A stretch of 34,890 nucleotides of DNA from Bacteroidaceae bacterium (GTDB lineage: Bacteria > Bacteroidota > Bacteroidia > Bacteroidales > Bacteroidaceae): assembly GCA_017408685.1 (NCBI GenBank), contig JAFQUE010000061.1, positions 1 to 34,890 on the forward strand, written 5' to 3'. How positions within the stretch are numbered: position 1 is the first letter of the stretch; each line of letters begins with the position of its first letter. The translations under genes were made by a program, and so were the position numbers. Shown in pieces: positions 32,892 through 34,496 of the stretch. Below the pieces are notes generated by a model, which did not search any database, had not been told where the DNA came from, and saw nothing but the letters and a program-made list of their open reading frames with translations.

Positions 32892-34496
32892 ATGGCTGAA
32901 ACAAAATTCATCTTCGTCACCGGTGGCGTGGCTTCATCACTTGGTAAAGGTATCATCTCGGCGTCTTTAGGCAAACTCTTGCAAGCGAGGGGGTACAAGG
33001 TTACAATCCAGAAATTCGACCCGTATATCAATGTCTCTCCCGGTACGCTCAATCCTCAAGAACATGGCGAGTGCTACATAACAATCGACGGTCATGAGGC
33101 CGACCTTGACCTTGGTCACTATGAGCGTTTTACCGATATAAAGACTACGCGCTGGAACACCTTCACCACTGGCCGCATATACAGCGAGGTTATCGAAAAG
33201 GAGCGCCGTGGCGAGTATCTTGGAAAGACGGTTCAGGTTATTCCCCACATCACCGATGAAATAAAACGCAAGATGAAGCGTGGCAGCACAAAGGAGAAGC
33301 TCGACTTTGTTATTACCGAGATTGGCGGTACTGTAGGCGACATCGAAGGCCTGCCGTTCCTCGAGGCTATCCGTCAACTCAAGTGGGAACTTGGCCGTCG
33401 CGCAGTGTGCGTACACCTTACATATGTTCCCTATCTTTCAGCAGCCGGCGAACTCAAGACAAAGCCCACACAGCATTCTGTAAAGCAGTTGCAGAGCCTG
33501 GGTATACAACCCGACTGTCTTGTACTGCGTGCCGAGCACAAATTAAGCACAGGTCTCTGCAAAAAAGTGGCAAGTTTCTGCAACGTGTTGCCCGACTGTG
33601 TAGTGCAGAGTCTTGATGTGCCTTCAATCTACGAAGTACCCATTAAAATGCAGGAGCAGGGTCTCGACGCTGCAATCCTGCGTCTTACCGGCGAAGAGGT
33701 GGGCGAGACACCGGCAATGATTCCATGGCGCACATTCGTTGAGCGTCGCAACAACGCCAAGAAGATAATCAACATAGGTCTTGTGGGCAAGTATGACCTT
33801 CAGGACGCATACAAGAGTATCCATGAGAGTCTTTATCAGTGCGGTACATATAACGACTGCAAAATAAAGCCTCACTTCATCAACAGCGAAAAGATTACCG
33901 AGGAGAATGTTGCGCATATGCTCAAGGGAATGGACGGTTACATCATATGTCCGGGTGTCGGTCCCCGCGGTTTCGAGGGCAAGGTAATTGCTGCAAGGTA
34001 CTGCCGCGAGAATAACCTCATTACCCTTGGCATTGGCCTTGGCATGCAAGTAATGGCAATTGAGGTGGCACGCAACATCATTGGCCTTGCCGACGCTAAC
34101 AGTTATGAGATGAATGACCAGACAACACACCGCATTGTTGACATCATGGAGGACCTCAAGAGTGTGGGCAATCCTTTCGGTACAATGCGTCGTGGCGGCT
34201 ATGACACAGTCATTACCAAGGATACAAAGGCCTATTCAATCTATGGTGCCGAGAAGGTTACCGAGCGTCACTACCACCGCTATGAACTCAATGTGGAGTA
34301 CCGCGACCAACTTGTTGAGGCAGGTCTTGCCTGCACCGGCGTTCACCCCGACAGCGGCCTGGTAGATATCGTTGAGTTCCCTGCTAACGACTGGTACGTT
34401 GGCGTAATATATGAACCTCAGTACTCAAGTACTGTGCTTCATCCGTCGCCCGTTGTAATGGACTTTGTGAAGAATGTTGTTGCCCGCAAAGGATAA
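32892..34496 (+). CDS. pyrG: CTP synthase with a catalytically dead glutaminase domain
   Basis: The 534-residue protein has both PyrG domains. The synthetase half (about 1-265) is well conserved: '[20 protein letters not shown]', '[10 protein letters not shown]', '[10 protein letters not shown]', 'IGGTVGDIE', '[10 protein letters not shown]'. It should make CTP from UTP, ATP and ammonia. The class I glutaminase half (about 290-534) keeps its frame and landmarks ('[10 protein letters not shown]', '[12 protein letters not shown]', '[10 protein letters not shown]'), but the catalytic Cys of G-I-C-L-G-M-Q is Gly382 (codon GGC, 34035-34037). The His and Glu of the HPE motif are Glu508 and Gln510 (34413-34415 and 34419-34421). 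The oxyanion loop reads PGVGPRG, one residue shorter than PGGFGxRG. Glutamine use should be abolished. It may be ammonia-only, or a paralog beside a normal copy. Confidence 0.93.

Follow-up and report, generated by a model that had tools for sequence, protein, structure and literature searches.

A CTP synthase without its glutaminase triad in Bacteroidaceae, and a candidate shift from glutamine to ammonia in nucleotide synthesis

Amidotransferases are held to carry a glutaminase of their own because free ammonia is considered scarce in cells (excerpt of PMC3376133), which raises the question of what a CTP synthase (PyrG) does once its glutaminase half has lost the catalytic residues. Such a gene lies near the end of the window, that is, the whole stretch of DNA analysed here (34,890 nucleotides), which is contig 26 of a 2.25 Mb assembly of a Bacteroidaceae bacterium in 95 contigs, 86% complete; the contig appears to stop at 34,890, 394 bp past the pyrG stop codon. 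The original prediction took the product for an ammonia-dependent enzyme or for a non-canonical paralog with a regulatory or filament role. Here, we examine the gene, the other amidotransferases of the lineage, and their counterparts across Bacteroidales. We regard it as probable that this CTP synthase works with ammonia only and that its lineage no longer uses glutamine to make CTP, GMP, and carbamoyl phosphate.

The pyrG gene and its altered residues

The open reading frame runs for 534 codons plus a stop without internal stop or break, and its product matches both PF06418 (397 bits) and PF00117 (68 bits), scoring above the cut-offs of the NCBIfam models TIGR00337 (657.8 versus 462.75 bits) and NF003792. 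Alignment to PyrG of E. coli K-12 (taken from NC_000913), which supplies the E. coli numbering, places Gly382, Glu508, and Gln510 in the columns of Cys379, His515, and Glu517, so that G/E/Q replaces the C/H/E triad; the predicted loss of the complete triad is thus confirmed by codons and alignment. The synthetase half, which had been called intact and in frame, is indeed unbroken and keeps 11 of the 11 residues checked. Two further peculiarities, a lid shortened from PGGFGxRG to PGVGPRG and a KYxELxDAYKS segment one residue short, hold against E. coli but not as oddities, since the seven-residue PGFGxRG lid and the short segment are also found in triad-intact relatives (L051, L052, L061, and L081-L084). 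The unusual feature of the lid is the replacement of Phe by Val rather than its length, and the original prediction had overlooked that Tyr replaces Arg at E. coli position 468, along with fixed changes at, for example, positions 48, 436, and 441. The features are collected in Table 1.

Table 1. Features of the window and related loci in the same genome and genus
Feature	Position	Strand	Basis or remark
pyrG, CTP synthase with predicted catalytic loss of the glutaminase domain	32892..34496	+	534 aa plus stop; PF06418 and PF00117 profiles, NCBIfam
Ammonia-ligase (synthetase) half of PyrG	32904..33683	+	PF06418 and residue alignment
Class I glutamine amidotransferase domain; still matches the profile, without the triad	33798..34460	+	PF00117
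L11 lid PGVGPRG; Val replaces Phe equivalent to E. coli F353	33951..33971	+	Alignment
Codon 382 GGC; Gly (GIGLGMQ) replaces nucleophile Cys379	34035..34037	+	Alignment
Codon 461 TAC; Tyr replaces GTP-site Arg468	34272..34274	+	Alignment; Arg role from excerpt of PMC9138612
Codon 508 GAA; Glu replaces His515	34413..34415	+	Alignment
Codon 510 CAG (YEPQY); Gln replaces Glu517	34419..34421	+	Alignment
Terminator-like stem-loop 3′ of pyrG	34518..34564	+	Consensus match only
Upstream syntenic genes (presumably nitroreductase-like, DUF2520-like, HAD/KdsC-like, Maf)	30093..32551	+	Wholly or partly common to clade A/B loci (L175, L176, L178, L179)
Truncated GuaA, GMP synthase of own genome	G000:C24:1351-2655 (L107)		435 aa; PF00117
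PurF-like gene, then carB, no carA between	G000:C64:462-5648 (L204)		24 bp gap
Island loci with intact guaA-pyrG	G022:C9, G020:C36, G042:C11, G008:C94 (L170-L174)

The genus of the window was represented by 44 genomes, of which 32 contain PyrG and 12 show none (two of these among the 11 best assemblies); the absence of a gene is therefore weak evidence in these assemblies. The 32 fall into two sister groups, namely clade A (22 genomes, and G034 with a fragment) and clade B (nine genomes), which together form one supported group of 32 rows in a tree of the synthetase half. G/E/Q is present in all 23 distinct clade A sequences from 22 genomes of this one genus (22 full-length, one stopping 7 residues early at a contig end), which stem from many separate metagenome-assembled genomes (MAGs) of sheep, goat, deer, yak, and water buffalo. 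The PyrG alignment that had been proposed thus finds G/E/Q in a single clade of the genus, and the ongoing decay in close relatives that would have spoken against the prediction was not seen, all 23 copies being open.

Among 22 clade A sequences, the synthetase half has a median dN/dS of 0.014 and the glutaminase half one of 0.048, rough values with dS near saturation (median dS 1.3 and 1.7; 207 and 135 of 231 pairs used, those with dS outside 0.05-2 being dropped). The ratio of glutaminase to synthetase distance was 5.2 in 144 clade A pairs versus 3.8 in 16 intact pairs at synthetase distances of 0.01-0.04, and 4.3 (55 clade A pairs) versus 3.0 (63 intact pairs) at 0.04-0.08. Together, these values suggest that the vestigial glutaminase domain is retained under selection, somewhat relaxed.

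Clade B retains C/H/E and carries, in nine of nine genomes, Gln383 to His in the elbow and Glu403 to Asp. We take Gln383, Glu403, and Arg470 of E. coli to be glutamine-binding positions; the equivalent of Arg470 is kept in the window PyrG, and the two substitutions at these presumed binding residues suggest that clade B may have lost glutamine use as well.

The equivalents of E. coli D147, E149, K187, Q192, R211, K223, and D240, which are presumably ATP-, Mg-, and UTP-site residues, are invariant in all 23 clade A sequences, as are those of K18, K40, D72, and E140. The latter four are among the ATP, Mg, and UTP site residues described in an excerpt of PMC8325340. As for Pro54, His57, and Val60, given in excerpts of the literature as the constriction of the ammonia tunnel of CTP synthase, the first two are kept and position 60 is Cys, a family trait seen in 135 of the 139 aligned rows. 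A scan of the columns in which 93 intact relatives show at least 97% conservation (E. coli numbering) revealed changes fixed in clade A at 48 (D to S), 353 (F to V), 379, 436 (G to F), 441 (L to R), 446 (C to T), and 468 (R to Y), and further ones at 492, 499, 513, 515, and 517, plus some others. With regard to the GTP effector, F353 to V and R468 to Y occur in 23 of 23 clade A sequences, with R470 kept. Phe353 is ordered by glutamine and helps to hold GTP, while Arg468 and Arg470 seem to be oriented towards the purine (excerpts of PMC9138612 and PMC8325340). According to similar excerpts, glutamine hydrolysis is stimulated by GTP, which in the E. coli enzyme also impedes the use of ammonia from outside; the Lactococcus lactis enzyme shows no such inhibition of ammonia use. 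Erosion of the GTP site would therefore fit loss of the glutaminase, and it may lift a brake on outside ammonia. It may also cost something, since GTP stabilises the CTPS tunnel as well (excerpt of PMC8325340).

Other amidotransferases of the genus

In the genome that contains the window, PF00117 matches occur in four places, corresponding to PyrG, a short GuaA, and two copies of a 589-aa protein. The GuaA covers just the first 76 of the 190 GATase positions and has no elbow and no HPE; its C-terminal and ATPase parts are present. The same truncation (76/190) was found in 26 of the 44 genus genomes, the copies read being without elbow or HPE, and also in several other genera of the family. Full GuaA is confined to four of the 44 genomes and CarA (PF00988) to three, in every case on the island contigs described below, and a PF00988 search of the own, 86% complete assembly found no carA. 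Genus-type CarB is present in 41 of the 44 genomes, with a match of at least 900 aa in 38 of them. Intact clusters run purF-carA-carB-guaA-pyrG; the arrangement of a PurF-like gene followed directly by carB (Table 1) recurs at L201, L203, and L205-L209 with gaps of different length. The PurF-like gene of the own genome belongs to class II and lies below the purF cut-off. Hence the three amidotransferases of nucleotide synthesis appear, judging from their sequences, to have become ammonia-dependent by three routes: loss of carA, truncation of GuaA, and substitution in PyrG.

Other class I glutaminases are kept. HisH has C/H/E in all six genus genomes read and looks able to use glutamine where present, and the 589-aa protein consists of a C26 peptidase domain, with C/H/E kept, fused to an M19 dipeptidase domain. 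A general loss of class I glutaminases was accordingly rejected. No HisH was found in the own genome by the PF00117 search (86% complete). One contig carries two copies of the 589-aa gene together with its neighbours, in opposite orientation (G000:C60:30462-30974 and 111785-112297), possibly through an inverted duplication or an assembly artefact.

The protein with an intact C26 domain bears on the first alternative, in which a separate glutaminase docks onto PyrG, CarB, and GuaA and feeds them glutamine-derived ammonia in trans. One shared partner would be economical in a lineage whose three synthetases all lack glutaminase activity of their own, the domains of archaeal GMP synthetase are separate subunits (excerpt of PMC10526850), and the C26 protein of the genus keeps a class I triad. 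However, as a C26-M19 peptidase fusion it is not an obvious partner, no new class I GATase common to the affected genomes stood out among the PF00117 matches read, and erosion has reached the GTP-site and L11 residues, through which the glutaminase is coupled to the synthetase; we consider this alternative unlikely.

A second alternative holds that the losses were selected as an escape from glutamine antagonists of the DON or acivicin type, which target the Cys of class I enzymes; ammonia use would then be the result of the losses and not their cause. CarAB, GuaA, and PyrG are all class I, the class II PurF-like gene (below the purF cut-off) stays, and DON binds the Cys of CTPS covalently (excerpt of PMC8325340). 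Against this, the class I HisH and C26 domain retain their Cys, as does clade B PyrG, and these genomes show no link to such compounds, making the proposal very improbable. Ammonia dependence of the three synthetases is the reading we prefer over both.

Copy number, genomic context, and recurrence

The original prediction noted that pyrG is usually followed by yidC in Bacteroidetes and favoured a rearranged or second copy here. The first point is borne out by 12 of 14 loci outside the genus, in which the gene 3′ of pyrG has an N-terminal sequence that we recognise as presumably YidC. The lack of a gene 3′ of pyrG, which the original prediction also cited, carries no weight with only 394 bp of contig left after the stop codon. 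Within the genus, pyrG of both sister clades is preceded by maf or the his operon. Loci of clades A and B follow DUF2520-like, HAD, and Maf genes (and the his operon in several), and because of these shared upstream genes their pyrG look like orthologs. In some species of the genus (L177, L176, and L178), a his operon precedes pyrG, with part of it visible in L177; the window has none between maf and pyrG, and together with the missing HisH this suggests either loss of histidine synthesis or an assembly gap. Consensus matching found six terminator-like sites in the window versus 2.5 expected.

A second copy is not supported. The genome search proposed for a further PyrG with C/H/E was run with PF06418 and returned a single match in the 86% complete assembly, the window gene itself. 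Likewise, of the 32 genus genomes with PyrG, 28 yielded the A or B type only, with no canonical PyrG found (the assemblies being incomplete), and seven of the nine with at least 90% completeness and at most 5% contamination show no canonical copy. Taken with the position of pyrG in both clades, the window gene reads as a single copy that has been rearranged, not as an additional one.

The four exceptions (G008, G020, G022, and G042) carry an island, present in four of the 44 genomes, in which glnN-dapL adjoins purF-carA-carB-guaA-pyrG with intact glutaminases; some of these gene labels are our presumptive identifications. The carA gene was seen in G020, G022, and G042 only, the G008 contig starting inside carB and continuing with guaA-pyrG. 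Three of the four canonical copies share a contig with a second glutamine synthetase III (GSIII) that is 90-91% alike across both clades, and island PyrG identities are 84-92% across clades. The island may be foreign, given these PyrG identities and because the similarity of the second GSIII ignores the A/B split. In G022 it lies on one contig with the genus-type purF-carB, for which co-binning, a chimeric contig, and real transfer are candidate explanations.

These data weigh on the third alternative, that the window protein is a regulatory, filament-forming, or non-catalytic paralog and that the true CTP synthase was missed by incomplete assemblies. Genes do go missing, as the 86% completeness of the own genome and the 12 genus genomes without PyrG indicate, and a canonical second copy exists in four of 32. 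On the other hand, every tested synthetase residue is invariant at a dN/dS of about 0.014, most of the best assemblies (seven of nine) have no canonical copy, and the contig linkage of three of the four canonical copies to so uniform a GSIII hints at foreign origin; there is little chance that this alternative is correct. Sequencing error or gene decay can be set aside with near certainty, for although the G034 fragment stops at residue 257, it runs into unrelated sequence near a contig end and was rejected as decay, being most simply an assembly join, and the 23 other copies are open and G/E/Q across species. Of the two roles first proposed, ammonia dependence is therefore the best-supported, given the absence of carA, the truncated guaA, and the conservation of G/E/Q, whereas the regulatory or second-paralog option found no support.

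The loss is not confined to this genus. An order-wide scan for a PyrG elbow with a non-Cys codon, which detects only some such codons, matched five of 393 genomes: the own genome, G588 (Ser), G650 (Gly), G385 (Gly), and G313, the last rejected because the match is not PyrG; four real cases in 393 is thus a lower bound. Among 76 fetched PyrGs from outside the genus in family f1, which we infer to be Bacteroidaceae, the triad is lost in 10, including five G/H/E sequences in genus g9, and four G/Y/Q and one C/Y/Q in genus g30. On the synthetase-half tree (139 rows, clade B scored as lost), the intact/lost label needs six changes, five of them forced by well-supported branches. Outside the genus, PyrG has lost its triad in about five further lineages of Bacteroidales.

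Substitutions at the effector site were also found in other lineages. All five g30 enzymes have 48 N, 353 A, 436 S, 468 H, 515 Y, and 517 Q, and the G588 enzyme has 48 N, 353 S, 436 E, 468 H, and 379 S; with clade A, this makes three lineages in which the effector site is changed together with the triad. Residues 353 and 470 are retained in the enzymes of clade B, g9, and G650. The PyrG of G232 has an intact C/H/E, yet 353 N and 470 H.

We next consider whether the other losses accompany that of PyrG. None of the four Cys-less genomes outside the genus (G588, G650, G385, and G666) has a CarA by PF00117, versus two of 11 comparators without one (15/1365 = 0.011, calculated by hand); the comparators come from three of the families, with none in f1 to match G666, and nine comparator CarAs were confirmed by PF00988, the four absences resting on PF00117. 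G666 is the genome of L055 and appears to be the same as G225 of genus g9. Three of the four also have a broken GuaA glutaminase. GuaA is truncated in G588 (by match length) and G666, and in G650 it is full-length with the elbow AIGYSAQ (L239, G650:C30), the Cys being lost by substitution; G385 has an intact GuaA although its PyrG Cys is lost. The genomes of three other lineages thus seem to repeat the threefold state of PyrG, GuaA, and CarA, one of them via a different GuaA change. The HisH-like proteins of G588 and G666 retain the elbow Cys and HPE.

In the 76 f1 genomes outside the genus, PyrG loss accompanies a degenerate GuaA in nine of 11 genomes, compared with one of the 65 in which no degenerate GuaA was found, a label that differs from GuaA shown intact (Fisher p 3.8e-9, inflated by kinship); loss is over-represented in this set, which was drawn from listed PyrG positions and takes in all degenerate-GuaA genomes having one. 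The class of one of the 11, G235, rests on 88% identity, as only the ATPase part of its GuaA was seen; two others, G263 and G277, combine a degenerate GuaA with an intact PyrG, and the sole loss among the 65, G260, has no GuaA match. A phylogenetically independent-pairs test of PyrG loss with GuaA loss yielded 3-4 pairs and was not significant.

Several observations from the wider survey may be added. In G484 (96% complete), the PF00117 matches comprise a 198-aa HisH-like protein and a 648-aa protein only, with no CarA, GuaA glutaminase, or PyrG glutaminase found by this profile. PyrG matches are unusually weak in genus g24 and split into two in several g11 and g15 genomes, and some genomes (e.g., G134) show a truncated GuaA and no PyrG match.

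An ammonia-dependent route and its known counterparts

In the proposed mechanism, the synthetase half would activate UTP by phosphorylation with ATP in the normal way, and the glutaminase half would no longer hydrolyse glutamine. The amino group would come from free ammonia, with NH3 entering the existing tunnel via the vestibule between the domains. The dead glutaminase domain would be kept as a scaffold that forms the tunnel vestibule and the tetramer. Similarly, the purF-like gene adjoining carB without carA would leave an ammonia-type carbamoyl phosphate synthetase, and a GMP synthase minus most of its glutaminase domain would be the third change in the lineage. An ecological cause may lie in an ammonia-rich hindgut, where glutamine could be spared at these steps; rumen bacteria prefer ammonium (excerpt of PMC5552732), and the named relatives of this MAG come mostly from ruminant rectum, caecum, or colon. 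What the sequences show directly is the altered residues, their conservation, the truncation, the recurrence, and the lack of carA in the searched assemblies; loss of glutaminase activity, retention of ammonia activity, ammonia as the in vivo donor, and the ecological cause are inferred alike. More broadly, it is rather likely, with somewhat less confidence than for the window enzyme, that some Bacteroidales switched, more than once, from glutamine to free ammonia for making CTP, GMP, and carbamoyl phosphate, through point changes in PyrG, truncation or Cys-to-Gly change of GuaA, and loss of carA, keeping glutamine for steps such as histidine synthesis where present.

Some observations pull the other way. 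The strongly constrained glutaminase half may do more than serve as a scaffold. GSIII is present in 40 of the 44 genus genomes, and glutamine is therefore made. The coupling of losses is broken by G263 and G277, where GuaA is lost and PyrG intact, and by G385, where the reverse holds. Finally, the island with intact guaA and pyrG is present in four genus genomes, and carA was seen in three of these.

If the ammonia reading is true, this lineage would show when the assumption of scarce ammonia fails, and nucleotide synthesis would be tied directly to gut ammonia. The CTP, GMP, and carbamoyl phosphate steps would be predicted not to respond to glutamine antagonists. The genomes also offer natural test cases at different stages of loss, namely Cys only, presumed binding residues only, triad plus GTP site, truncation, and subunit loss. 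A family-model label of "glutamine-hydrolyzing" can mislead, and the TIGR00337 name, glutamine hydrolyzing CTP synthase, is probably wrong for the window PyrG.

Ammonia use by CTP synthase in vitro is classical, and ammonia-specific amidotransferases such as CPS1 and NadE are known. In the open-access literature searched, we found no report of a natural Cys-less or triad-less CTP synthase, nor of joint glutaminase loss in PyrG, GuaA, and CarAB. In a survey of about 800 prokaryotic genomes (Table 1 of PMC3376133, as excerpted), every synthetase for CTP, GMP, or carbamoyl phosphate is listed with a glutaminase component, in 800, 730, and 600 genomes, respectively; the survey counts components rather than triads. 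The window enzyme shares with canonical E. coli PyrG (TIGR00337) the two-domain architecture and the synthetase residues, and differs in having G/E/Q instead of C/H/E and in the replacement of the lid Phe and a GTP-site Arg. In E. coli CTPS, the G352P variant makes no detectable CTP from glutamine and is almost fully active with NH4Cl (excerpt of PMC9138612); that is a laboratory mutant, whereas the state in the window is natural and fixed across species. Single-domain NadE is a natural in vivo user of ammonia (excerpt of PMC3376133), but it is thought to have been ancestrally without a glutaminase, unlike the window PyrG, which would have arrived there by loss. The ammonia-specific CPS1 of ureotelic vertebrates also keeps a dead glutaminase domain: human CPS1 has lost the Cys (Cys to Ser), and frog CPS1 keeps the triad and cannot use glutamine (excerpt of PMC4655335), two states that resemble clades A and B, respectively, of the window's genus. 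CPS1 differs in being another enzyme with another product, in serving ammonia disposal, and in needing N-acetylglutamate; the lineage described here is bacterial, and its PyrG has changes throughout the triad and at effector residues.
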